The notes under the pieces: model-generated
What the model saw: the letters and a program-made list of their open reading frames with translations, nothing else
Told to the model about the DNA's origin: nothing
The model's database searches: none
Shown here: positions 8,501 to 61,170 of the stretch, piece after piece
How positions within the stretch are numbered: the first letter of the stretch is position 1
Layout of the letters: each line of letters opens with the position of its first letter
Assembly: GCA_030765065.1 (NCBI GenBank)
Contig: CM060984.1
Span: 99,429,488 to 99,493,487, forward strand
Reading direction: 5' to 3'
DNA from: Deroplatys truncata
Taxonomy: Eukaryota > Arthropoda > Insecta > Mantodea > Mantidae
Length of the DNA: 64,000 bases
Position numbers and translations under genes: made by a program

Positions 8501-11500
8501 ATTCTTACAAAAACTTGTCCTTTATCTTATTCTTGATAATCAAGACAGACTTTCATTACACATTTTGTTGTAGGCAGAAGAAGTAGGCTAAACAGAGTCA
8601 AATTTTTAAAAAGGAAGTATTTGAAAATTCAAACCAATAACAAATAATATCTTGAAAATAGGTAACATCACAAATTCTGTTTGACATAAATTGTATCTCA
8701 AATAAGATCTACATTTTTTCCACAGTAAGATTTTGTCCATTATGGTTTATCAGTTATACAAAAGTCAGTGAGATGAAGAGGACTTGCCAGGCTCTTCACA
8801 GAGAATTCAAGTTATGTTTTATTTTTTCAAATATCTTAAACATATGGCATTTTACTCAAAATTGTAGGAGCCACTTTTGAGAAACACAAAAATACAAGAA
8901 ATTTTTCCATATAAAGGGTAGTTTGGGTGGGGGATTTTCTTGAAAATCATGTTGCATTCTTGGAAGACACTGAACTTAAATGCCTAGTTTGTTGTTTAAC
9001 AACTTTTCATTTATGAGTTATTCTATTCTCTCTCACGACATTTTTTACTAAAACTGCTTTATTTGTTTTTCTAATTCGGAAACATGCATTTCTGGTGAAA
9101 TCTCATCAAATTTTTGGTGGAATGCAATACTGCCTATACTTGCTATAAATAGTAGAGAAAGTTATTAAACTCAAAAACATATTAATGCAAGGAAGAATGA
9201 GGCATTGTTGTCAATATGTTGTCAATTCCTATCTTCTAGACAAAAGTTGTAACATAAATCTGTTCTTTAGCTTGAGAGAACAGACAATTCCATTAGTTAC
9301 CACTGTAATAAAGTGTAGGTTTTTTTTCCATATAAGCTATAAAATCTTATGATGTAATAAAACATTTTCTGGGCAAAAATGTGTAAATTTGTGGAGGGGG
9401 GGGGGGAAGAAAACTAGATTTTTGCACTTGAATAAAAATAAAAACATTTTGCATATCAATGTGAAATTAGAGCTTTAAGAACCAAAATAAAGTTGGATCT
9501 AAATAATTTGGATACAACAATTTAAAGCAGTTAAGTATTAGAAGAATAATAATAAATTTTACAACCAAGAGCTTTAGAATTTTCAAACTCTGCATAAAAC
9601 AATGTATCAAGCTTGTCTACAAATACATGGTTTTGTTTGAATTTAAGAAATATGAAGTTATCATGCCTCTTTCATGGTTAACATGCACAGCATCAAAGGC
9701 CACAATAAGATAAAAATATCTCATTCCACATGGAGTTACAACTATGTGTCACTATGACTTCTTTGCCTTCATTGGCTGAAGAGGCATGCTCATTGGTGCA
9801 ATGTGAAATGTCAGCGACTTCCGAGAGTAATCAATACATACGGTGTATGTTATCTGAGAGGCTCCTTATAAACAAAGATAAAGCACATGTTAACATGAAA
9901 GGGGCACAATAATACATTAACATTGCTTTGTCTATCATTTATTTTTATATTTTCTGTAAACTATTCCTAAAAGCTTATTTTCCTATCTACTTCTTGTTAA
10001 TTGAGATAAACATTTTCAGAAATGGTTTCATAATACATGTTGCTGAAATGATAGTTAAATTTTTTTAAAAAAATTGATTGTATGTGATGGCTTTGAATCT
10101 TCATACTATTTCCAGGACATAGCAAGAAACAGCTGAATGGTGACAACACTTCAAAACATCTTATGTATTACATGCACATGACTTTCAGTACCCACTCTTG
10201 TACAATTTATTCTTTCAAAAGCTTACATTGTGTCTACTTTCTATTAATTAAGATAAATATTTACAGAAATGCTTTCATTACAAATGTGGTTGTAGATACA
10301 AGAAGATGCAAGAGGCTGAAGCAATAATCAAATCTTTTAAAAGTGGGTCGCTATATGATTGTTTTGAAATGCTACTCTTTGCATGACCAGGAGAAATCAG
10401 TGAATAGCAACTTGCATTTTGAAAAAAGTGTGTTTGAAAATTCAAACCTTTAACAAAGAATATCTTGAAGGTTAATGCCACAAAAATTTGACAAATTGTT
10501 TGTTTTGCTGAGATCTACATTTTTCGTACAGTTTGCGTGTTATACAAAATTCATATGGAGTGAACAGAACTTCCTATTGGCAATAAAATCAAGATAACTT
10601 TTTATTTTTCATGCAAATATCATAAATACATGCTATTTTTATCAAGGTTGTTAGAACAATTTTTGAGAAAATAAAAATATAAAATAAAAGAAATTGCAAG
10701 AAGAAAAGGCTATTTTGAGGTTGCAGATTTTCTTGGAAATCTTGTATAGTATCCTTGGAAGTTGCTAAACCTTATTGCCAAGTTTGGCATTTATCTGACA
10801 TTCCATTGTTGAGTTATGCTGTTCACACACACACGCCTTTTTATAAGGCTTTTTTTTATTTCAGCGACCTCAAAACATATGTTTCCCACTCCATATCAAA
10901 TTTTTTTGTGGAATGCAATATTTCTAGTTACTACAGATACATGTTAGGAAAAATTAGAATGGCAAAGTACTGAAAAACTCAAACCAATAGAGGAAATATT
11001 TTGGAAATATACCACAAAAATCTGATGTGTTACACTCACATGACTTTCTCTACTCTTGTACAAACTATTTTTACAAACGTTTATTCTCCATATGCTTCAT
11101 GTTACTCGAGATATCGAGATGTCAATCTTATTGCTAATTTTCTTGTAGATGCAAGGGGAACATGGTAGGTTATAAGCGATAGTCAAATCTTTTAAGTGTT
11201 GGTTGCTATGTGGCGCATTATATTCTGTTTGCATATCCAGGACATAAAAAATTGAATAACGAATTTGAGAAAAAGTTTAAGTATTGGAAAATTTAAGGAA
11301 ATAACAAGCAATATCTCGCAGATGGTTCACTCAACTAAAAAAATGTATATGACATAAATTGTGTATTTTAACGCGATCTACATTTTTTGTGTAGTAAAAT
11401 TTTGTCTATCTCTTATGGTTTACCAGTTATGCAAAAGTCGTTCACAATGAAGAATACTTTTGGAGACATTCCCAGAAAATTCAAGATATACATTTTATTT

Positions 11501-14500
11501 GTCATAAAAATATCTTAAACATATGATATTTTAATCAAAATCGTTAGAGCCATTTTTGAGAAAATCAAAAGTTTCAAAAAATCTTCCATGTAAAGGGTAA
11601 TTTGGGGTGGGGGGATTTTCTTGAAAACCTTCGTGTTGCATCCTTGGAGATACTGAACCTAAATACCAAGTTTGGTGTTTATCCGACTGTTCGTTTCTGA
11701 GTTATGCTGTTCACAGACACACACACACAGACACACACACGGACATGTTTCCAAAAATGCTTTTTTTGGATTCAGGGGATTTCAAAACATGTATTTCCGG
11801 TGAAATCTCGGTATCGAATTTTTGGGTGGAATACAATACTTCCCCTACTTACTATACGTAGTAAGTAAAAGTAAAAGGTTACTTCAAATAAATGGTGTGT
11901 TTTAAAGAGATTTACATTTTTTGTGCAGTAGGTCTGTAACTATCTCTTAAATTACCACTTATACAGAAGTATGCAAAATTCATTGTTCACAGGTTAATCA
12001 CAGAAAATTCAAGATACTCATTCTATTAGTCATGCAAATATCTTGGTATTTTAATCAAAATCGTTAGGGCCATTTTTGAGAAAAAGGAAACAAATAACGA
12101 AGATTTTTCCATGTGGTAGTTAGGGGTGAGGGGATTTTCTGTAAAATCTTTGTGTCACAATACTGGGAGATCTGGAACTTAAATACAAATTTTGTATTTA
12201 TCCAACATTTTATTTTTAAGTTTGCTGTTCACACACACACAAGCCTTTTTATAAAAATACTTGTTTTGGATTCAGAGGATCTCAAAACATGTAGTATCCC
12301 ATATGGGAAATTCCACAAAGTACACCTGGTGGAATAATCTGAACATTGGACAGAAGGAAAAACCTGTCACTTTTTCATTAGATTTACTAATAAAGCATTA
12401 ATATTTATGCAATATAAGTTATTTCAAAGGATAGTTATTGCTATTAGGAATATTTAAGACATAGATTACCTTGTGCTTCACGAAAGTGTTTAAATCCAAT
12501 ATTGTGCCACTGTATAATCTACAATAGTTTTACTATACAATTTTCAAAGCAGTTCATAAGTTTCTGTCAGCATACATCCTCACATAGTTGTAGTTTTAAT
12601 GTAAGATCTTTGATCTAAGAATATTAATCTGACTGACTGATTTTGGTTATTTTAATAGCTTGTAGATTGGGAGTTTTTGGGCAATTGTGTTAAACCTGCT
12701 CAAATTGTCCAGGATACTCATACTATAGGTAATGTTGTAACTTTATGGTGGCAGGATAACAAACACTGTGTATGAACTTGTGGGATTGATAACGTAACTA
12801 AACTGCGAGATGTAAGCATAGCATTATGCATTCAACTACAGTTATGTTGTGATTGGTCAGTGAAACATTGTGCTGCTTCCTTCCCTCTGACCACCCAAAC
12901 CTAAGTTGACATGCCATCTTTACTGCATGGAGAAAGGGATGGACAACAATGACAGCAGGAACATGGATTATTTTTGTATGAAGCACAACGTGAACGTTTA
13001 TTAAGGTTTATGATTTTCTGTATAAAGTTTGTGCTTTTGCAAAATGGGACACTTTCAAATCCATTCAGTGCTAACTAAGCTGTGTGAAAGTGAGATTCTT
13101 CCTCATTATTGTCATCCTATTTATTATAGTTTTAACATTACTAGTAAAGAGCTTTTATCCCTGTTTCATTTGTCTTATATGGAGTTTCTGTATCAATTTT
13201 GCCAAATGGGTGAAAATGGAAAGCATACAATATTGCTTATAACTTTATAATTTGAATTGACATTTGTCCACCAAGCGATGACGGCACCAGTGGGCGTTAT
13301 CTGTTACCTGTGATGACAGGATGAGAATGGAACAAGAAGCCCTGCAGCTTTTACTGCAGACTCGGAACCACATTGGGGCTTTGGGTTACTTTACATGAAC
13401 TACTCAGAGGTGAAGGCATAGATAGAATCAATTTAAAATCAACTCAGAGTCAGGAATAGAACCATGCACCCTCAGCACAAGAGCCGTGAACGAAACCACT
13501 AAGCTACCCTGGCACTCTTCTTTAAAATGCTTACTTTGATAAATGTATACAATTTTGCACAAGATTTAATGTGTTTGTTACCTTGGGTACAGATTCTGTA
13601 GTAGAGGGGGAGAACATTTTATAGTTTATTATTTTGTTTATTTTACTATAATTTTCTCTAGTTTATTCGGAGAGAAGGAGAAAGGAAGAATTAAACTTTC
13701 ATAAGTTTAATTTTGGGAGAGGAAGAAACCTTTTGTTCCTAAAATTGGTTACTACAGAAACTCGTATACATGCAGTGGATGTAACTGGAGCGCATGAAAT
13801 GATTGTCATATTCTAGAAGATTTGCTTTAAGATCACTAACATGCTACAAGCACCTCTGCCAGAAGTTAGTGGATATTGTAGAATTGAACTCACAACAGCA
13901 ATTCTACTAAAGCCTATTTTTAAGATTGGGTCAATTCCACATAAAATAATCTGTGACCTGTTGTAGTAGTACTGGACCCAGAAACAGCTTTGCAGCTTTT
14001 ACCCTTCCAGTCACCATGAGCATTGCAACAAATATTCAATTATAAATGAGTTTGCTGCAAAACAAAATATGGTTATAAAGGTTTTAACTTTGTGCAGTTC
14101 TGTTTTACTATTGCTACGTATTTTGGAAGCGTATTAAATTTATGGCTATTAGCATGACTTAACTAAATTGCAAAATATTTTTCATTTTTCTTAAGAACAT
14201 ACATACTTCACAGTAGTGCTGCTGAAGTCTCATCAGTATTTACGCAGTTACTGTGTACTTTATGTGGGCCACCCCATTCTTTACCTCAGATCTATTAGCA
14301 CCACAGTTGGTCCCTGACATAGAAATCCTGCCCAGTCAATCTACAAGCCTGAGAACAAATAATTATGTTATGTTCCTAATTTTGAAAAAGTAATGGTTGA
14401 AAATGGATTTAGACTGAAAGGATTAAGAAAGAGGAAAAAGAGAAAAAAGAAAGAGAGAAATTGTAAGTCCTAATTTTATTCTAACATAACCAGTTGGAAC

Positions 14501-17500
14501 ATACCAATTTACTTAATGTGTTCATTTGGTATTTCTTCAGTCCACTAAGGTATCATTTCCTCAGAGAAACAGTATTCGGTATCACTAGTCCTATAGGCAT
14601 AATTACCATCCTCTTGTACAGCAAATCCAGGATGCCCTTCATGTTTTATACGCTTCTGGTGTTTGGCTACCGGGTCACGTCGGCTTGGCTGGAAATGAAC
14701 TAGCGGATTTGGCGGCTAAGGCGGCGGCAATCCAACCCGGTGTTGTCATCTCCCGCGTAACGTCGGAGGACCTTCGGCATGTTTTGCGGAGAGCGGTCCT
14801 CTCGTGCTGGCGCAAGGAGTGGGTGGCTCTCTGCGGCAACAAGCTTAGGGTAGTGAAGGACCTTCCTGTTCCCTGGATTACTTCTAGTCATTTTTCTTGC
14901 CATGAGGAAGTTATTTTAGCCCGTTTACGTATTGGCCACTGCAATTTTACCCACGCCTATCTTTTTAGAGGTGACTGTTCCACTTTGTTCTGCGTGCGGC
15001 GGATGTCTATCGGTCCGCCACCTGTTGTTGGAGTGCGCCCCCTGGCGCATCTTCGGGATGCTCTGCAGCTGCCGGCAAGTCTTGCAGAGGTCTTGGCGGA
15101 CTCTCCTCACGCGGTTGATAAGCTTTTTAAGTTTTTATCCGAGGCTACCTTACACTTGCGTTTTTAATGTTTCTACCTGAGATGCTTCGCCGTTCGGTGT
15201 TTCATTTTTATTCTTCTCTTTATATCTATTTACCTTTGACTTTTACTTGCTTTTATTCTGATTCCTATCCTCAGCTTTTGCTGTGATTTTTAACTTTTGT
15301 GTGTACCTTTGGCTTTTACCTTCCTCTGTTTTAGAACGGCGCTTATAACCCCGGTAGTTGAGCGCCGTAAACCAACATTCCTTTCCTTTTCTATAGGCAT
15401 AACATAATTTGTGATGTACACCACATGAATTGCAAGCTTTGTTTCATTTATTTTTGAGAAAATATGACATGTTTTGGTCTTTTTTAAATTAAAGTAACAA
15501 ACTAATGATTGAAAGGCAACGGATTAAATTGCTTGCTTATTTACTTTATAGAAACATCATTAGCAAGCATAAAAACATTGAAATTCTGTTCTTGTCATTC
15601 ACAATGTGAACAAAATCGAGGAATAGCTATATTTGAAAATACTTTAAAGCTTAAAAGTGCTATTACATGCAAGAATACTGAACATACCTGTTATATCAAG
15701 ACCTCATATTTTTAGGTCTGTAAAAACCTGTTTTTAGGCAGTTAAAATTGATTTTAAAATTATCAAAATAGATACTAATGATTCAGTTTTACACCCCTAA
15801 AAATACGGTTTCCACAAGCTAAACATTCAACTTTATGCAACTAAAATGTATTCTACTTTCTAAAGTCCAGTAGATTTAAAGATGCAATCACAAGATTTCA
15901 CAGTATCATAGGCAGTAAAGTTACTGAATTATTATGGCTAGAAACATTTTTATCATATGGGAAGTCCCACTCAAAGGGGTCCCAAAAATTGTCATGCCAT
16001 TGTGTAAATATTTTGCCAAATGTGACTCAGTTTGGATGTAGGACAATTCATTACATGAGAAAGTTGACATGGTAACACTGTACTCTGTAAACACCGAGGA
16101 AGTATGTCAACAGAGTTACTGCAAGTTGTGTTTGATGCTCATGTTCCAGTTCAGCAGAAGCAGAAAAGTGACATGACATGCTAGCACTTGTGACAATATC
16201 TTGCTTTCTGTTGAATGCATTTCTTGTGAAATAATATTTGTTAGTGGTCCCTTTAAGACATGTCGGCAAAAGTTTCTGAAATGGTTTCGTGGACGACAAG
16301 ACCATCAAAACAATGCACACAAAATTCACGAGGAAGCTGGAGAACAGTGTTAGATTGACATGATGGAGAATGCTGGTATAATCGAGCCTTTTTTTGGGGG
16401 GGGGGGCTCTGCTATGACAGGTGAATTACGTGGAATTGTTTTGAAGATTTGTAAATCAGTTAAACAATCAGAAACTGACACACAGTTGGTGCAATATACC
16501 ACACGTCTCAAGTGAGCATGGCTGTGGTGAAATTGTTTCTCACTGACCATCATTTCATAAAGATTATGGCCCCCAAGGGTTTGACCCTACCTGACCTTTT
16601 CCTGTGAAGTAGGTTTCCAAGGTCTGCATGTACAAACCATGCACCCTCAATGAGTTACGGCAGAATATCTGCTATGAAACCAACCCAGGCAGTGACACCT
16701 GAGGTTCTAGCAGTCAATTCATCAACTTGCAAAGTCATGTTGAACTGCACTTAAAAGTTGATTTCAGCACATCTTGTACTATACTCGCACACATAGCTAT
16801 GCCATATTCAGATTTTCTTTCATTTCCTCTCCATTTACATTTTTTTACACAGCATTTTCTGGGACACTCAATATCTCAACATTGCTAGTACATAATATGA
16901 GCTTATAAAGCTGAAAGAAAACACTCAAAACTTACTGAATATAGCGCCATATTGCAACTTACATACTCTAGGGATGATATGGACCCATCCCCAAATAACA
17001 GTTTGAAATACAGTTGAGAAAGCAAAAGAGGAAACCTGAAGAAAAGTTTGAGAACATGTGCATAAAGTTCAACTGTTTTATTAAGAGATTGAATTAGTTT
17101 GAAAAACTCGGACAGTAACAAAGATGAACATTTGAAAATGAAGAGGCCGAGGGATGTGAGGAAACAAATCTGCCATTGACCCTCTTGCTTTTGGAAGGAA
17201 TTCTTTCATGCTGCAGCCACTGAGTGAAACCAAAGGATGACAAAGACAGGTAGAGAGGACAAGTATTTTCTTTCTCTTTCTACAAAACAAGTGATTGACA
17301 ATTGGACAACATAAAGTACCTGCTAAAGTGTTAAAATAAACCAATCCTTTTCCAGGAATTTCTCATTCCTATAACCAAACTATTACAAGGTCTTTGGACC
17401 ACACCAATCCAATTGTATTCAACATTGTATCTTTCACCGCATATGAAAAAATTAAAACAACACAAATAGTAAAATATGCACTTTAGGCTCTAAAACTTTA

Positions 17501-20500
17501 AAATGTGTCTCATTGGCAAAATAGGCTTTTTAGGCACTAGGAAGTCCCTGCCATGGATTTATATTTTATTTAAAACATGAAGATATCTAACTTGGTTTAT
17601 TTTATTCATGCCCATAAAAGAGAGGCAATCAGCATAAAATTTAAGATCTAGTTATAGCTCTGGAAAAGCAAAAAAATTATATCAATGTTTTGCATATATT
17701 TCAAATTAATGTAAAGACTTGACCATAAAAAGCAATCTAAATTAGCTAAATGAATTCCGAAATATTAAAATTAGTTTGTAAGAATTTTAAATCTATCAGT
17801 TAAACATGGCCTGAGTAATGGTAATTTTAATGTGCAACTCCATGCCTCTGAGATGTGATAACATGTGCATCGTAAATATGAAGAGCCCAGATTGGGTAAG
17901 TTTCCAAGCTGTTTTACAGATTTTCTTGTTTATCTGAAAAGACAAATGTCATCATGTAACTGTTTGCAACCTGGATCATTTGAGCATCCATTGTCATCAC
18001 TTCATCTGAACTGTTGTGATAAAACTCTCACCAAAAAAGAAAAACAAAAGTGCCAAACATGTAGCAGTGTTCCTAGAGTACATTGTCCCCTTAAAGACTT
18101 GAGAGTCCATGTTGATATAATCTGCTATGGCACCTTGCCAGGAACATGACTCACTGATTTGATATGTTGGCAGACTAGAATTTCAAGAAAGAGTTTACTT
18201 TAAGGCATCCTGTTTACTTTCTCTACTCGTATTGTAAGTAGGGGAAGTATTGTATTCCACCCAAAAATTCGATACCGAGATTTCACTGGAAATATATGTT
18301 AAAAGACCCCCTGAATCCAAAAAAAGCATTTTTGGAAACATGTCCATGTGCGTGTGTGTGTCTGTGAACAGCATAACTCAGAAACGAACAGTCAGATAAA
18401 CACCAAACTTGGTATTTAGATTCAGTATTTTCTAGAGATGCGACACGAAGGTTTTTAGGAAAATCCCACACCCCAGATTACCCTTTACATGGACCATTTT
18501 TCGAAAATTAATTTTCTCAAAAATGGCTCTTAACGATTTTGATTAAAATATCATATGTTTAAGATATTTTCATGACAAATAAAGTGTATATCTTGAATTT
18601 TCTGGGAATGTCTCCAAAAGTATTCTTCATTGTGAATGACTTTTGCATAACTGGCAAACCATAAGAGGTAGACAAAATTTTACTGCACAAAAAATGTAGA
18701 TCGCGTTAAAATACACAATTTATGTCATACACATTTTTGTTGTTGAGAGAACCATTTTCGAGATATTGCTTGTTATTCCCTTAAATTTGTCAGTACTTTC
18801 TCAAATGGGAATTCGTTATTCATTTTTTTTGTCTTGTATATGCAAAGAGTATTAATCTGTGGCAAAGGGAATGGTGCTGCACAAGCTATTAAGAGATATG
18901 TCTATGCTTAAAGGCTACTGTATTTCTATATTGCCCTTGCAAATACAAAACAAGGGAACATAGTACGCCTTAAGCGAGTCAAATATTTTTAGAACTGGTC
19001 GCTCTGTGTAAAATGTAATTCTCTTTGCGTGTCAAAAGATCGTTTCTGCAAATGTTTATCTTGATTAATATGAAATAGATGGAGAATAAGAGTTTATAAA
19101 AATAGTTTGTACAAGAGTAGAGAAAGTCATGTGAGTGTAACACATCAGATTTTTTAAATATAAATGAGTTATAAAAAGATCTTGAACTTCCATTTATTCT
19201 TCTTTTTTATCCGTACTATAAAACCAGTGATACTATCATTATTTTTAACAATCCTTGGGTTACAGTTAGTAATATAAACGTATAAGGAAATTATTACATG
19301 GAAAAATAACACTTCCAGTCAAGTTTCCCATCACAAGACCTGATTGTCTTTATCAGTACACACTTAAAAATATTGATTTACTCATTTAAGGTTAATGACT
19401 TAGATTCTTACCATATTGCTTGTTTAATGCCAGCTTGTTAATTACTTGTTTGTATGTTACTTTTGAAAAACAAGACGCATTAATTTCAAGCCATAAGTAA
19501 TATGTGAAATATGTCTCTTCATTGATAGGTTTATTTACTAAACACAGATAAATGTGTATCAGCTTGTAAATAGCCCAATTTTTAAAAAAAGTTAATTTAA
19601 AATGTTGAGGTGTACTGAAGCCTTCGGTATTTGTTATTTATAAGTGTTAAAAGTTTCAGAGAATAAGTAACCAGAATATAGAATCTTGTCATTTTCATTA
19701 TCTTTTTATAGAAAACATTAAGAGTTTATTTCTGTTTAGTATTAACAAAATGAAAGCTAAAAAAGTGTACAAAATTGTCTCAAGAAATTTTCTTTTTAGT
19801 ATTCGTTAATGTTTCCACCATAATAAAAATATGTAATGCAATACATTTATGACTTTCTCTACCCATTACAAATTCACATGTGTTTCTTATATTATGCTGT
19901 TGATACAAATAATGTTCTCTCCATGTTATGTTAATGACAAAAAAGAAATAGTTTTGGTCACTCAACATGGCCTGATTAAATACTTCATGCAGAAATAATT
20001 ACATTTTGCCATCCAACAGAATAAAGTGATTTGAAAAAAATGGTTTTCCTAGCTGATTCTAAAGACACCATGCCATACAATTCATAAATAACAGTGCCCA
20101 AAACCAAACAGCTACCATTCAATAAATAAAAAAGAAACTTAAAACCTTAAAAAGATATGCAAAAGCAAATACAGTTTAAGTGGATACCACCACACGTCAA
20201 GATTGTGGGGAATGCAACAAGCGATCTACTAGCCAAGAAAGGTACCAAACTATGACCACCTTTCAGAAACCATAACAAACACTCAACAATAAAACAAAAT
20301 CAGATAAAGGACTAGAGCAACAAAAGAAAAGTCTTGAAAACATTTGATCAGATGTGGGAAATCTACAAAAGTAAACACAGAAAAGAAGTCATTGCCACCT
20401 TAATATTAGCCACAGAACACACTTGTCTGGGTGCTCACCTGTACAAAATTATTATATATTCAAATGAAGATTGCACAGTATTCAGATAACTCAACAATAA

Positions 20501-37000: not shown

Positions 37001-40000
37001 CAAAAGTGCAACAGCCCATTGAGGCCTTGCAGAAGCACACAAGAGTTTGCCATGGAGGTGGAGCTGCTGGCACATCAGGCTCTGACAGATTTGCCACCAG
37101 ATTTTATTTCTGGAGAGGCAGCCACACTTTTATCAGATGCATAAGAGACTGGAAGTGAAGCAGCTGCTTCTCCTAATTAAACATGGTAACATTAAAAGCA
37201 CCCTGGCAGCTGTTCTTTATATTGTCGTATGCCTCACTTATATTAACTTAGAAATGCAGATGGGAGCAACTCGCTTGCAAGAGGGATCGTTAAATTAACA
37301 AAGAACTTTAAACTCGAGGCAACGACAAAGGAATGCAGCTAAGTTATCTCTCTAAATAATTAATACACCAACACAATTTCTGGCTGAAGGGAGAGGCAAG
37401 GAACTCTACACTATCATAATTAAAACTGCAAGAGAATGGATAGCTGGTAGATTTATTATAAAAGTTTTCTTACCCCATGTGTCTGCCGGGCGAGGACGCC
37501 ATGTCTTAGGCAGTTGTCCGTCTGACTCACTCGAAGCCTACTCTCAGAATGATAAGAAGCCACGCTAAGTTGGCGTCAGTAACGCCATATCCCTTCCAAT
37601 GACACACTGTTTCCCCTGAATCGCCCCTACTCAGAAAAACTGCCCTCTCTGACCTTGGTAACCAGAGAGCGTCTTAACAAGACTATCTGTGCACATGCCA
37701 CATCTCCCCCGGCCACCGAAGTCGACGCCCTCGTCGACATAAGGAAAATAAATATAATAAACATGAAAAGAACAAAACAAAATGACATACAAAAATGACA
37801 TACACATGTGTGATGAACCAAAATATAACAATAATATACATGTGTGGTAAGCACCCAGCCGACGACAATGTTGCGTTTTTTTTTTTTTTGTTTTTTTTTT
37901 CTTTTTTTTTTCTTTTGTTTTTAGATGGCTGGCTCGAGAATCTAAAGTGCTGTCGACCAATATTGTTAATGCACTTATCTTTAGCACCCCGCACACGCAC
38001 ACACCACGCTGCCTCAGTTCACAGGCACACTACACTGCGCAAAATATCGATGGTCTGCTGGAACTGTTTGTGGGTGATTTTATACAGTGCCCACAACGAC
38101 GATTTGTCCTGGTGTAGAATGATCACCGCAGGTCTCTGGTGATGACAACAGGGTGGGCAGTCGCTGGCTTGGACTGCCCCCCGACATGGTGGCTCCTTAT
38201 GCCACGGCAGTGTAGTGGCTGCCTGACAGCTTCCCTGTGGTGTTTCTTGACTTCTGGTGTGCCCCGGGGATGCTCTTGGATTTTCTCGAGCTCCGTCACA
38301 GCAAAAGACTAGAACAAAACCACCAAACAATAAACAGGGTGCTCCCACAAACAATCACACATAAAAGAATGGTATGTCATGTACAATTAAAGATTTTAAA
38401 GGTTGAAAAGTTTACACTAAAAATTCTTTTGACATGGGGCAAAGAAAGAGAAAAAAAAATAAGTACAAATTGGCATAAGAACGAAATTTTACAGAGTTGC
38501 CATCCAAAATTTAACTTACAATGCTTCACAATCCAAATAAAACAGTAAAACAGACTCAGAATACATGAACATGACAGAAATGAAACATAACCTTATTTTG
38601 GGATCCCAATATTAAATCTTAATAACCAGCTGGTATCACTAACAAAAGAAAGTAAGTGCACTTACAAGACAATCACACATGACAATGAAATGAACTCATT
38701 CACACTGACCATGGCCCAAATTACACACAACACTCACTTAACTATCTACTCAAACTAGTGTATGCATCACTACAAACTACATCCACAATACATCTCTAAA
38801 CTACGCCACGTGACATGCTTTCAACTACTATTGTCCTACTCTTGTCACCAATACAACTTCTCGTCCACATCACTATCTTTCTCATCTCATTATTATCAAC
38901 ATCTTTCATAATCATCATCAGTATCATCAGCAGTATTGCAATCAGCAACATTGTTATCTCAACTTTTAATTTTCTCTTCAAAACAAAACATCTTCACTTA
39001 CGTGTCTCATTTAACATGCTGTAAATTCAAGACATCTAACATAGGCATAACCTTCAAGAAATCACATTAACAATCCAGGAATGACACAAATAACATGACA
39101 GTATACTGTTGCATCCACATCCTCCAAATGAAAATTAAGCTGGAAAACAGGTGGTATTAAAATTTGCTATCTAAGATGGTAATAAACTTGTTGCATAAAC
39201 AAAAAAAAAAAAATTATTCACATTACAATCACTTCCATGCATTTAATCTCTCGTGTGAATTCATCACACACACTATACTGGGCACGTTACAGCAACACCA
39301 ATAAGCAAAATCTCTGAAAACATACAACAACTGTCGGGGTTACACTGTGGCACTTCCACCGAAGCTGACATCATCTCGTCTCTTCTCATCTCTCCTCATC
39401 TCATTAACACCGTCGGGGTTACTCTTTGGCACTTCCACCGAGGCAAATCTCAACTCTTATTCCTCACATAACCTCACACTACGCCATCGGGGTTACTCTT
39501 TGGCACTCCCACCGAGGCAAATCTCACATATATCACATAACCTCAAATACACACACTATTCATGCAACAATTTTCTGCAAATAAAAATCACAGCATCATT
39601 ATGAAACCCAAAGTCAAATCGAGTCAAATCAAATCAAACCATATCAAATCAAATCGAATGCAACAAAACAACATCACATCATTACTCAAAACAATATTGT
39701 CACAGAACATTCCTGAAAATGAAAGCTCAATTAAGCACATAGTACACATGAAACACATTCCTGCAGCATAACACAACAACAAAACAAATGATTTGCAGTT
39801 CCCAAAACATAATTCAAAATTTAAGTTACACCCACAATAATAATACACTTTTAATTTAGCAGAGACATTCATATCACATATTCCTGAAAAACAAAGCTTA
39901 ATTAAGCATCAGTCAGTGAAACAATAAATTTAGCCTACCTGTGTGAGTCGTAAAACTGTTTCATTCGTCCAAACTTTAGCACTCACAATGTTTACATACT

Positions 40001-43000
40001 TACAGGTGATTTTTCTTTCTTTTCTCTTACTCGTTTACCACAATATTCCCGTGCAATTTTCCAAAATCTGGTAACACACGTACAGCTGGTTCATCAACAT
40101 CCACATCGTACTGGTCCATATTAGAAGCACATCAAACCTAATTAGGTGCAGATACTGGCAAGGCTGGTAGGCTCCTGAAACTTTTACTTACATGAGTAAT
40201 TGTGAAGCATTTTTCCCCTAAAAATATGCATTGCGTAATTAAATAAACCAAACTTGGTAACGGTGAAGCAAAATTATCAGCATTATCATTTCCTTAATTT
40301 TTCCGCAATTGTACAACGCACAAAATTTTCAATATATATACGTGACCTCTTTCATTTTATTACTTTATTATTCTAAATAAATGCACCACACTTTTTATAC
40401 ACACGCAAATTTTAACCACGCAACACACAAATTTTGAACTAATTTGTTGTACTTTCGAGTCGTTAATACTTTCAATATGACGCAATCTAGAATGCAATGT
40501 TACGTAAATCAGCTCACACACGCAAACACATTATCAACGACACAAATATCACCCAATTTTCACAATTCACTTTTCGCAATTTACGAAAATAGATACGTCA
40601 AAAGGACCAGCACGAAGAACTTAACACAGTGATATAATTTAAAGGAAATGAAGCCAAAATAAGGGGAAAATGGAGTCAGAAGTTTTAGCGTCACGCCGGC
40701 AGACAATGGGAAAATGAAAAAATGAGCTCAGAATTAAAATTTCGTAACCAGACTTTCAGATATGATAGAAACAAAATTTAGAAGAAGAGAATCACAAATT
40801 AAAGTATAAAAATCCTTACCCTTAAGCCAGAAACAAATTTAGATTTTCTTCGCGACCACGTGGAGGGCTAGAAAACGTTACATTTTAGAGGGGAAAAAAA
40901 AAATTTTGCACTTAAAATCTCAAAACAATCAAACCAATTACTCGGCGCCACCGCCAATTGTCGTATGCCTCACTTATATTAACTTAGAAATGCAGATGGG
41001 AGCAACTCGCTTGCGAGAGGGATCGTTAAATTAACAAAGAACTTTAAACTTGAGGCAACGACAAAGGAATGCAGCTAAGTTATCTCTCTAAATAATTAAT
41101 ACACCAACACAATTTCTGGCTGAAGGGAGAGGCAAGGAACTCTACACTATCATAATTAAAACTGCAAGAGAATGGATAGCTGGTAGATTTATTATAAAAG
41201 TTTTCTTACCCCATGTGTCTGCCGGGCGAGGACGCCATGTCTTAGGCAGTTGTCCGTCTGACTCACTCGAAGCCTATTCTCAGAATGATAAGAAGCCACG
41301 CTAAGTTGGCGTCAGTAACGCCATATCCCTTCCAATGACACACTGTTTCCCCTGAATCGCCCCTACTCAGACAAACTGCCCTCTCTGACCTTGGTAACCA
41401 GAGAGCGTCTTAACAAGACTATCTGTGCACATGCCACAATATTGAAGTAGCGAAGATGACTGCTGGAAGAGCCATCCTGATGCCCAGCCAGAAATGTGAC
41501 AGCTATGAGTGATGGGGGCAGTGCCATTAATAAAAGTTTGTTGTAGTAGTGGAGGCATGGAAGATCTACTTGCTGGAGTTGGTGAGAGCCCTGATAGCCT
41601 AAGGGTCGAGCAAGTCATAATATGTAGAAATTTCATTTAAACCAGGGCCACGTTTGTAAGTTCTGAACACAGAATGAAGATTTTGAGTTGCCAAATATAT
41701 TTGGTGGAAAGTGTGTAGATGTCATGTTTTAAACTAGAGATAGATCTCAATTATATTGAAAAAAGTTTATGAACACTTTTGTTCTATCTTTCATTGATTT
41801 GTAGAGAAATTATTTGAAACATTAAAATACAAAGTGGATTCTTATACATTGGGGCAAAGGCCACAGGAGAGTAAATTTGGGGTGAAGGCTACCGGAAACT
41901 GGGCACCATACATGCGGTTGCAACTACTTCAAGTTGGGCTCCCCAACATTCAAAATATAATACAACCTACTTCAAATTAGCTAACCATACATGAAGCAAC
42001 AAACACGTTTATATATATTTTACATAGTAGTAATGTGATAAATAGTAGTATTGCACCCAAAAACTTGATACTGAGATTTCACCGGAAATACATGTTTTGA
42101 GACCCCCTGAATCCAAAAAAAAAGCTTTTTAGAAACATGTCCGTCTGTGTGTCTGTGAACAGCATAACTCAGAAACAACAGTCGGATAAACACCAAACTT
42201 GGTATTTAGGTTCAGTATCTTCCAGAGATGCGACACGAAGGTTTTCAAGAAAATCCCCCCCCCAGACTACCCTTTACATGGAACATTTTTCGAAAATTTT
42301 AATTTTCTCAAAAAATGGCTAACGATTTTGATTAAAATATCATATGTTTAAGATATTGTCATGAGAAATGAAAGGTATATCTCGAATTTCCTGGGGATGT
42401 CTCCAAAAGTATTCTTCATTATGAACGGCTTTTGCATAACTGGTAAACCATAAGAGATAGACAAAATGTTACTACACAAAAAATGTAGATCGCGTTAAAA
42501 TACACAATTCACAAAATATACATTTTTTTTGTTGAGTGAACCGTTTTCGAGATATTGCTTGTTATTCCCTTAAATTTTCCAAAACTTATACATTTTCTCA
42601 AATTTGTTATTCCTTTTTATTATGTCCTGGACATGCAAAGATAATGGAATGTGTCACATAGCAACCAGCGCTTAAAATATTTGACTATCGCTTAAAACCT
42701 ACCATATTCCCCTTGCATCTACAAGAAAATTAGAAATAAGATTAACATCTCGATTAATATGAAGCATATGGAGAATAAGCGTTTGTAAAAATAGTTTGTA
42801 CAAGAGTAGAGAAAGTCATGTGAGTGTAACACATCAGATTTTTTTAATTCTTATGCATCTTTACAATAACTTGTTAAAGTACTTTGAAGATACTTGCATA
42901 AAATATACAAAAAAAAAGTATTATACTTATTAACTACTTTGTCATGAAGAATTAAGGCCGGTTCACAATAACCCGAGAACAGAAATGAGAGCAGGAAGCA

Positions 43001-49521: not shown

Positions 49522-49817
49522 TTAAATTAAATTGAGTTTTATTTATGGATGCTCTTTAACTACTATGGTCCTTAGCGTCCCATTCTATATTGGGCGTGAA
49601 AGATCGGTAATTTTGCTCAGAGACCTCTTTATCAGGCTTGAGGTTCTTTTACGTGCCATAAATCTACGACACGGGACCACCGGCTGTACTTCCCTTCCGA
49701 AGGAAGCCATTCTAAGGATTTTTACGCCCGAAAAAATCCATTGCCCTCTCCCGGGTTTGAACCCGTGACCTTGGAAACTAGAGGCTAGCACGGTACCACT
49801 AATCCACAGAGGATGAC
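49522..49817 (-). mobile_element. SINE family A, full-length, with target duplication
   Basis: 296 bp on the minus strand, flanked by the 11-bp direct repeat AGGGAAGAGGT at 49511-49521 and 49818-49828. The head is at the right (CGGTACCACTAATCCACAGA, reverse A box; CGGGTTTGAACCCGTG, reverse B box near 49757) and the tail at the left ends in TTAAATTAAATTGAG. The duplication shows insertion by target-primed reverse transcription. Confidence 0.93.
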
Positions 49818-51081: not shown

Positions 51082-51265
51082 CCATACATTAACCCTTCCC
51101 ATGTTAACAATGTTTAAAACATGCTCTGATATTGAAAATATTATGCTATTTACACCTTATTCATGCACATTATAACTAATATTAAATAGAAGTAATCATT
51201 CCTGACTTTATGTTGATTTTGAAAAAAATGATCTATGTGCTTAAAGCTATACTCGGGACACTAAG

Positions 51266-51553
51266 TCGTCCTCTGTGGACTAGTATTACCGTGCTAGCCT
51301 CTAGTTCCCAAGGTCGCGGGTTCAAACCCGGCGGAGAGCGATGGATTTTTTCGGGCGTAAAAATCATTAGCACAGCTTCCTTTGGAAGGGAAGTAAAGCC
51401 GGTGGTCCCGTGTCGTAGATTTAGGGCACGTAAAAGAACCTCAAGCCTGATAAAGAGGCCTCTGAGCAAAATTACCGGTGTTTCACGCCCAATATAGAAT
51501 GGGACGCTAAGAACCATAGTAGTTAAAGAGCATCCATAAATAAAACTCAGTTT
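51266..51553 (+). mobile_element. SINE family A, full-length, with 13-bp target duplication
   Basis: 288 bp, flanked by exact copies of TCGGGACACTAAG at 51253-51265 and 51554-51566. It has A box (GTGGACTAGTATTACCGTGC), B box GGGTTCAAACCC (about 51319), GCTTCCTTTGGAAGGGAAGT, TAAAAGAACCTCAAGCCTGA, and a tail with GGGACGCTAAGAACCATAGT and CATAAATAAAACTC. It is very close to 49522-49817 in reverse, so both are recent. Its open frames on both strands are not genes. Confidence 0.95.
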
Positions 51554-58677: not shown

Positions 58678-59520
58678 TTACTTTCTCTACTACGTATAGT
58701 AAGTAGGGGAAGTATTGTATTTCCACCCAAAAATTCGATACCGAGATTTCACTGGAAATGCATGTTTTGAGACCCCCTGAATCCAAAAAAAGCATTTTTG
58801 GAAACATGTCCGTGTGTGTGTGTCTGTGAACAGCATAACTCAGAAACGAATAGTCGGATAAATACCAAACTTGCTATTTAGGTTCAGTATCTTCCAGAGA
58901 TGTGACACAAAGGTTTTCAAGAAAATCCCCACACCCCAGACTACCCTTTACATGGAACATTTTTCGAAAATTTTAATTTTCTCAAGAATGGCTAAAAATT
59001 TTGATTAAAATATCATATGTTTAAGATATTGTGATGACAAATGAAATGTATATCTTGAATTTTCTGGGAATGTCTCCAAAAGTATTCTTCATTGTGAACG
59101 ACTTTTGCATAACTGGTAAACCATAAGAGATAGACAAAATGTTACTACACAAAAAATGTTGATCGCGTTAAAATACACAATTTATGTCATATACATTTTT
59201 TTTTTTTGTTGAGTGAACTGTTTTCGAGATATTGCTTGTTATTCCCTTAAATTTTTCAATACTTATAATTTTTCTCAAATTCGTTATTCATTTTTTTTAT
59301 GTCCTGGATGGAATGCGCCACATAGCAACCAGCGCTTAAAATATTTGACTATTGCTTAAAACCTACCATATTCCCCTTGCATCTACAAGAAAATTAGCAA
59401 TAAGATTGACATCTGGATATCTCGATTAACATGAAGCTAATGGAGAATAAGCGTTTGTAAAAATAGTTTGTACAAGAGTAAAGAAAGTCATGTGAGTGTA
59501 ACACATCAGATTTTTCAATA
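58678..59520 (+). repeat. R1 family copy, full length (reference copy), subfamily 1 tail
   Basis: 843 bp. Left end TACTTTCTCTACTACGTATA then GTAAGTAGGGGAAGTATTG. Core blocks: CATAACTCAGAAACGAATAG, AAGGTTTTCAAGAAAATCCC, AAAATATCATATGTTTAAGA and GATCGCGTTAAAATACACAA. Right end AGAGTAAAGAAAGTCATGTG followed by AACACATCAGATTTTT. The left ACTTTCTCTACT is mirrored by AGTAAAGAAAGT at the right, one base off the exact complement. No coding capacity: the 124-residue minus-strand frame covering 58433-58807 overlaps it by chance. Confidence 0.9.
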
Positions 59521-59875
59521 CTTATTTTCTCAAATGGGAATTCGTTATTCATTTTTTTGTCTTGGATATGCAAAGAGTATTAATCTGTGGCAAAGGGAAT
59601 GGTGCTGCACATAGCAACCAGCTATTAAGAGATATGTCTGTGCTTATATTGCCCTTGCAAATACAAAACAAGGGGAACATGGCCTTAAGCGATACTAAAA
59701 TATTTTTAGAACTGTTCGCTATGTGTAAAGTGTAATTCTCTTTGCATGTCAAAGGATCGTTTCTGCAAATGTTTATCTAGATTAATATGAAATAGATGGA
59801 GAATAAGAGTTTGTAAAAATAGTTTGTACAAGAGTAGAGAGAGTCATGTGAGTGTAACACACCAGAGTTTTACAT
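59521..59875 (+). repeat. R1 family fragment, subfamily 2 tail
   Basis: Directly follows the previous copy in the same direction. Starts at the AATGGGAATTCGTTATTCAT block and ends with TACAAGAGTAGAGAGAGTCA, AACACACCAGAG. Same tail type as 18214-19156. Confidence 0.85.
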
Positions 59876-59928
59876 TTGATCCTCACACATTAAATACAAA
59901 TCCAACTACCTTAAATTATTTACATCCT

Positions 59929-59930
<2 letters not shown>

Positions 59931-59966
<36 letters not shown>
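59931..59966. repeat. (T)36 homopolymer
   Basis: 36 consecutive T, between the forward and reverse R1 copies; could be a retroposon poly(A) tail on the minus strand. Confidence 0.95.
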
Positions 59967-59969
<3 letters not shown>

Positions 59970-60219
59970 TCCTGAAAACTTGAACCATTTTTCTGATGCA
60001 TTCCCTTCCTGGATATAACATCTTACTCTGAATAAGACCTTGAAGCTATTGAAACTGAAGCTCTGATCTTAAAGTGAAGGGCACCCAAGACTCTATTGGC
60101 AAGTTTATTTCAAATCTGAAGTACTGGTTTAAATATTCAATCAAGATCAAAAGTTTTAGATTTAAACTCATGTTCATGGAACATGTTAACGTACCTACTT
60201 AAAGCTCTTATTTTCCACT

Positions 60220-61170
60220 ATAAAAATAAAAATCTGATGTGTTGCACTCACATGACTTTCCCTACTCTTGTACAAACTATTTTTACAAAATCTTATTCCC
60301 CATCTATTTCGTATTAATCAAGATAAACATTTGCAGAAACAATCTTTTGACATGCAAAAAGAATTACATTTTACACACAGTGACCAGTTCTAAAAATATT
60401 TGACTATCGCTTAAGGCCTATTATGTTCCCCTTGTTTTGTATTTGCAATGGCAATATAAAAATACAGTAGCCTTTAAGCATACACATATCTCTTAATAGC
60501 TGGTTGCTATGTGCAGCACCATTCTCTTTGCCACAGATTAATACTCTTTGCATATCCAAAACAAAAAAAATGAATAACGAATTCCCATTTGAGAAAATAA
60601 GTACTGAAAAATTTAAGGGAAATAACAAGCAATATCTCGAAAATGGTTCACTCAACCAAAAAAATGTATATGACATAAATTGTGTATTTTAACCCGTTCT
60701 ACATTTTTTGTGTAGTACAATTTTGTCTATGGTTTACCAGTTAGGCAAAAGTCGTTCACAATGAAGAATACTTTTGGAGACATTCCCAGAAAATTCAAGA
60801 TATACATTTTATTTGTCATAAAAATATCTTAAACATATGATATTTTAATCAAAATCGTTAGAGCCATTTTTGAGAAAATTAAAAATTTCGAAAAATGTTC
60901 CATGTAAAGGGTAATCTGGGGTTTTCTTGAAAACCTTCGTATTGCATCTCTGGAAGATACTGAACCTAAATACCAAGTTTGGTGTTTATCCGACTGTTCG
61001 TTTCTGAGTTATGCTGTTCACAGACACACACACACACAGATGTTTCCAAAAATGCTTTTTTTGGATTCAGGGGGTCTCAAAACATGTATTTCCGGTGAAA
61101 TCTTGGAATCAAATTTTGGGTGGAATACAATATTTTCCCTACTTACTATACGTAGTAGAGAAAGTAAAAA
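60220..61170 (-). repeat. R1 family copy, full length, subfamily 2 tail
   Basis: Starts AAAATCTGATGTGTTGCACT and CATGACTTTCCCTACTCTTG and ends TTCCCTACTTACTATACGTA with AGTAGAGAAAGTAAAAA near 61168. With 58678-59875 it makes an inverted pair of about 0.9 kb arms separated by about 350 bp. Same subfamily as 18214-19156. Confidence 0.9.

Follow-up and report, generated by a model that had tools for sequence, protein, structure and literature searches.

A gene-less, LARD-like retrotransposon subfamily in the mantis Deroplatys truncata and its likely Ty3/gypsy partner

Gene-less long terminal repeat (LTR) elements are already known from insects, and pairs of non-autonomous and autonomous elements from plants, according to the available parts of three reports (PMC3286476, PMC5473765, PMC11302176). 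For the mosquito Culex quinquefasciatus, the accessible text describes 38 gene-less LTR families (cqUNK) and cites one element resembling a large retrotransposon derivative (LARD) (PMC3286476). The portion available of a further source gives the barley LARD as LTRs of ~4.4 kb with a ~3.5-kb central domain, sets a limit of ~1 kb for terminal-repeat retrotransposons in miniature (TRIMs), and has LARDs reported, as of 2012, from plants only (PMC3532108). Here we describe a gene-less LTR element in a 64,000-nucleotide stretch of the 4.29-Gb genome of the mantis Deroplatys truncata (assembly GCA_030765065.1, contig CM060984.1, positions 99,429,488 to 99,493,487; hereafter the window), together with its gene-less relatives (S) and a gag-pol sister (A). 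On the sequence evidence, the element is very probably a recent copy of an amplified gene-less subfamily that is mobilised in trans by A and recombines in A particles.

The element (4,216 bp) lies on the minus strand, the only one fitted by both the polypurine tract GGGGGAGA (37703..37710, adjoining the 3′ LTR) and the primer-binding-site (PBS)-like stretch TGGCGGTGGCGCCGAG (read from 40956; 40939..40956, 2 nt past the 5′ LTR). Its 5′ LTR (sense orientation, 40959..41438) and 3′ LTR (37223..37702) measure 480 bp each and align pairwise without gaps at 4 mismatches; the ends are TG..CA, and copies of an ATAT target site duplication (37219..37222 and 41439..41442) flank both LTRs. An AATAAA polyadenylation-like signal is present in each LTR (37452..37457 and 41188..41193, minus strand), as it is in a second LTR type described below. 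These features, with an interior of 3,256 bp (37703–40958) free of recognisable genes, bear out an earlier sequence-only reading of the window, which had described a young gene-less LTR element; that reading also had the PBS-like site and polypurine tract properly placed but did not see the strand. Searches of the whole window with Rfam (gathering) and ARAGORN gave no match.

The interior divides, on the same strand, into a 358-bp 5′ leader (40601..40958), a 689-bp noncoding segment (39912..40600) and a 2.2-kb 3′ noncoding tail (37703..39911). The leader (over ~350 bp, at 89–92%) and the tail (93–96%) are common to the gag-pol sister copies L015–L017; the segment is private to the gene-less class and occupies the place of gag-pol. 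Three ~46-nt repeats spaced 74–79 nt apart lie within the tail (39328..39526, minus strand), and L015 and L016, two of the sister copies, show repeat cross-matches as well. One or two PBS-like units of ~20 nt follow the 5′ LTR in the family (seen in L009, L011, L013, L015, L045 and L046), the two-unit site occurring in both S and A copies.

The interior has no recognisable protein-coding capacity, as in a LARD. None of the 8 open frames matched Pfam above cut-off (two weak sub-cut-off matches, PGAP1_TMD at E 0.034 and AgrB at E 0.3, fell in one low-complexity frame), and a six-frame Pfam search of the element with X at stops gave a single weak sub-cut-off match (PEX-1N, E 0.14). The possibility raised by the sequence-only reading, that a profile search might detect reverse transcriptase (RT) or integrase in the interior, was not borne out in these Pfam searches. 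Pfam picked up the broken frames of sister copy L017 clearly; a degenerate RNase H frame elsewhere in the window (14589–15167) is a poor control for searches of this kind. The longest open stretch (118 aa) was matched or beaten in 121 of 300 dinucleotide shuffles and the longest ATG-started frame (115 aa) in 45 of 300. Three 19–25-base element patterns each found 0 matches in IMG/VR, and a distant-mode search of phage records gave no match. Against PDB, where one of the six frames was searched, the weak similarity to MOB-like phocein (E 0.015–0.026) crosses stops and was taken as chance.

Querying the genome with the window LTR gave 41 matches from the best 40 of 3,937 candidates (here and in the other genome searches scoring was confined to the best places, and a candidate count should not be read as a copy number). 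Judged from their spacing, they comprised 7 S-like pairs (3.63–3.74 kb) and 3 pairs at 8.35–8.39 kb; other spacings were 4,393 and 2,170, besides a ~855 tandem array. Reading of 26 further stretches, of which L022 and L029 are one copy, identified S copies (the window, L009–L014 and L030, plus the further-deleted L019), long gag-pol copies (L015–L017, plus L029 with truncated LTR and leader), partial or rearranged loci (L025, L026, L027 and L031) and 7 LTRs free of an interior (L021, L023, L024, L028, L032, L033 and L034), with L021 bearing a remnant of the primer site and a piece of LTR. The tandem array (L020, C1:68899560-68902760) is built of ~855-bp units of LTR, ~350-bp leader and polypurine tract, and is like a miniature derivative with head-to-tail shared LTRs.

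The 689-bp segment, used as a query, was found at 95–100% identity in 40 of 40 scored places, the window included (best 40 of 1,753 candidates; 15 of the 40 were read). Leader, segment and tail follow one another in 22 of the 23 segment-bearing loci read (LTR-found and segment-found together, some read in part, with the window copy, L002/L035, counted once); the exception is the hybrid L018, in which 383 bp of the segment is fused to 1 kb of gag-side sequence. Against the gag-pol stretches of L015–L017 the segment gave no match better than E 0.01. Because the gene-less copies have one private segment and identical junctions, S is an amplified non-autonomous gene-less subfamily and not a lone deletion copy.

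The A element is ~8.85 kb long and has LTR, polypurine tract, leader and tail in common with S. LTR identity between the two classes is 94–96% (L015–L017), the polypurine tract is the same (one base off in L016), and the ATAT duplication is present in L015 and L017. Between leader and tail, ~5.4 kb of L015–L017 holds gag, protease (PR), RT, RNase H and integrase (INT) domains; frames for gag (369/374 aa) and pol (1,208 aa) are open in L015 and L016 and broken in L017, and in L016 the shared tail begins ~12 bp past the pol stop. After gag, the pol domains of L015 and L016 run PR-RT-RNaseH-INT, the order that marks Ty3/gypsy, and by gag and this order A is predicted to belong there. With an 800-bp RT piece of L016 as the query, identity was 99–100% in all 40 scored places, L016 included (best 40 of 1,186 candidates). 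Young, numerous and with open-frame copies, A is the likely partner of S. The sequence-only reading had predicted that a genome search would yield many gene-less copies and a separate autonomous family matching in LTR ends and PBS; many such copies were found, as was a gag-pol family that agrees with them in LTR ends, leader and polypurine tract. The active partner that it postulated is supported to the extent that a young one exists whose frames are open (L015, L016).

Comparison of the two classes reveals exchange of parts. Across the tail, no difference is fixed between 7 S copies and 5 A copies (L015, L016, L017, L029 and a partial L027), and 74 sites are polymorphic in both classes, with mean differences of.0328 between S copies,.0331 between A copies and.0321 between the classes. 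Permutation of class labels, which predates the reading of L029 and L030, detects no S/A structure in the LTR (P 0.36) or in two tail blocks (P 0.67 and 0.31). In the leader, 9 S and 3 A copies are separated by 5 fixed differences, all ≤35 columns from the junction. This is the pattern that recombination between S and A would leave if it spared the stretch near the class-defining part. The two LTRs of a copy are alike in all 19 measured pairs (K2P (Kimura two-parameter) distance 0–0.0146; the window, L009–L019, L030 and L043–L048, with L020, L025–L027, L029 and L031 outside the set), and exchange therefore preceded integration.

LTRs and interiors have also been shuffled within S. Those further S copies nearest to the window copy in the segment (96–98%) carry widely differing LTRs, with BLAST identities to the window LTR of 75–81% (L036–L040, L042, L045–L048), 87–90% (L043, L044) and 94% (L041); S copies with LTRs 94–97% identical to the window have segments at 93–96%. 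The type-2 LTRs of L045–L048 are 84–86% identical (global alignment, gaps excluded). Between type 1 (8 S copies) and type 2 (4 S copies) the fixed columns, indels included, number 56 in the 5′ LTR, 0 in leader plus segment and 2 in the tail, and the LTRs themselves look mosaic. A type-2 LTR query returned 40 scored matches (best 40 of 3,378 candidates), among them 7 S-like pairs at 3.49–3.73 kb; other spacings were 8.24 and 8.33 kb (known by spacing alone), 1,413, 2,550 and 2,260. The A class is likewise mixed: among the 5′ LTRs of four A copies, two of them read in part, that of L049 comes closest to type 2 (84–86%, versus 78% to type 1) and L050–L052 are nearest type 1 (89–92%), and the RT piece of L049's copy is 100% (rounded) identical to that of L016 despite an LTR identity of 78%. 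We tentatively suggest, as a possibility only a little short of an even call, a single recombining pool with nearly free assortment of three features: the interior (gag-pol or 689-bp segment), the core type of the LTR and how many primer-site units there are. If so, the gene-less interior would parasitise the partner's proteins and, instead of being tied to a single LTR lineage, shift among LTR types as promoters diversify.

An exact 4-bp duplication borders 17 of the 19 paired copies, as ATAT in 15 and GTAT in 2 (sense orientation; L018 is included despite an altered base at one LTR end). ATAT makes up 0.93% of 4-mers in the window and, on 15 of 19 paired copies, is a target preference of the family. 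Neither this preference nor the exchange of parts had been noticed in the sequence-only reading. Substitution rates of 2.8e-9 to 1.1e-8 per site and year convert the LTR divergence of the window copy (K2P 0.0084) into an insertion age of roughly 0.4–1.5 million years; the LTRs of L010 are identical to each other.

S retains the parts required in cis (LTRs, polypurine tract, leader start with PBS-like site), plus the 2.2-kb tail. We propose that its transcription is driven by its own LTR, and that the RNA would be packaged in particles of A Gag, copied by the A RT and inserted at ATAT by the A integrase. Because S and A RNAs would share particles, RT could switch templates between them, and leader, tail and LTR blocks would reassort in one pool. 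Several observations weigh against this proposal. The PBS-like site is not tied to a tRNA, and a tRNA-Ser-like primer or self-priming may be considered; the leader keeps S/A class structure (permutation P 0.014); and in tail bins 1901–2100, adjoining the LTR, copies of different LTR types diverge more than copies of one type. L016 is without a target duplication and that of L046 is one base off, while only L028 and L032 of the 7 interior-free LTRs have ATAT on both sides (L023 is flanked by TTAT, and L021, L024, L033 and L034 are without an exact pair at the LTR ends). The comparisons of S and A draw on 3–5 A copies picked through LTR similarity to the window, the tail comparison kept 7 of 9 S copies (L013 and L019 were dropped for coverage), and the whole is confined to best-scoring places.

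A further challenge comes from gene conversion or crossing-over between integrated copies, which makes mosaics just as template switching does and could homogenise the family even were S still mobilised in trans; rearranged copies are at hand in L016 (without duplication), the L020 array, L025–L027 and L031. Within-copy LTRs are nevertheless alike in 19 of 19 pairs, whatever the LTR type, and exact duplications border 17 of 19 copies, therefore the mosaics were present at insertion, and we consider this route unlikely. That some other gag-pol family mobilises S, with A merely a cousin, would suit a primer site without a tRNA assignment, a segment without an assigned source and a reading limited to the best-scoring copies. 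Set against it, A has the LTRs, polypurine tract, ATAT, leader and tail of S, the hybrid L018 links the two classes, and A is young and numerous; an outside mobiliser is in our judgement very unlikely. We think it extremely improbable that the window element is a dead deletion copy, that is, one gag-pol element that had lost its coding sequence and did not belong to a separate subfamily. Same-LTR sister copies do carry gag-pol, which the sequence-only reading had named as the sign of a mere deletion copy, leader and tail are common to them, and truncated or rearranged members exist (L019, L025, L027). The place of gag-pol is, however, taken by a segment with no match better than E 0.01 in that of L015–L017. 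This segment recurs in all 40 scored places and is flanked by leader and tail in 22 of the 23 loci read, and the copies that carry it have young LTRs and target duplications of their own; the lone deletion copy was rejected on this segment and these junctions, shared by many separate insertions. Trans-mobilisation of S by A, with template switching between their RNAs, remains the explanation that we favour.

The window also carries TBP-family exons on the plus strand at ~5.2, 30.1, 35.9 and 44.0 kb (5198–44100), which we take to be TBP-like factor TRF2/TBPL1; the first matches Pfam TBP at E 2.7e-08 and the other three were located via peptide motifs. With plus-strand exons at ~35.9 and 44.0 kb, the minus-strand element therefore lies antisense within an apparent intron (~36.0–44.0 kb) of this gene. 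Elsewhere, members of a dispersed repeat family lie, in either orientation, at four or more sites (11016–12300, 18228–19154, 42051–42843 and 58721–61170), mostly 80–97% alike over longer stretches. Inverted arms of 289 nt (49529–49817 and 51265–51553), 92% complementary and 1,447 nt apart, could be a terminal-inverted-repeat element, and a 192-aa open frame on the plus strand (14589–15167) with weak RNase H similarity (E 0.021, or 0.12 with X at stops, both sub-cut-off) is perhaps a remnant of another retroelement.

How S is to be classed depends on the sense given to LARD. It has the LTR pair, TG..CA ends, target duplication and many copies with a conserved noncoding interior, and in the available description shares with the barley LARD a gene-less LTR element structure and a central domain of comparable length, ~3.5 kb in barley (PMC3532108). 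The LTRs, at 0.48 kb against ~4.4 kb, are too short for a barley-type LARD, so that the LARD label of the sequence-only reading holds for a gene-less LTR element in many copies but not in the barley sense; the element also exceeds the TRIM limit (PMC3532108). That such elements are seldom described in insects stands for the word LARD (PMC3532108), but not for gene-less families, given those of Culex (PMC3286476). A literature query for LARDs together with Orthoptera found nothing. We regard S as a non-autonomous, LARD-like subfamily of Ty3/gypsy whose likely partner is clear and which shows exchange of parts.

Each of the known systems, as far as the accessible text of each report goes, matches S in part. 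The 4-bp ATAT duplication, the target motif being all that was compared, recalls the Drosophila Idefix clade (297, Quasimodo, Transpac) and 412 clade (PMC3276498). Rice Dasheng and RIRE2 likewise pair a non-autonomous element with a putative autonomous partner, with similar target sites and some chimeras; those plant elements form separate LTR clades (PMC5473765), whereas the LTRs and tails of S and A intermingle in our small sample. Quinta and Cereba of einkorn wheat were also proposed as a pair by LTR, PBS and polypurine tract motifs, with recombination by template switching proposed; Quinta still encodes Gag, whereas S encodes nothing recognisable (PMC11302176). Closest among insects are the Culex cqUNK families, which keep LTRs, PBS and polypurine tract without coding and have internal tandem repeats and similar LTRs per copy, but have no known master copy, whereas S has a gag-pol partner sharing leader and tail in a recombining pool (PMC3286476). 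With likely partner, hybrid copy and exchange visible in one genome, how a gene-less element depends on its partner can be tested largely by sequence, and the parts that it has retained are revealed.

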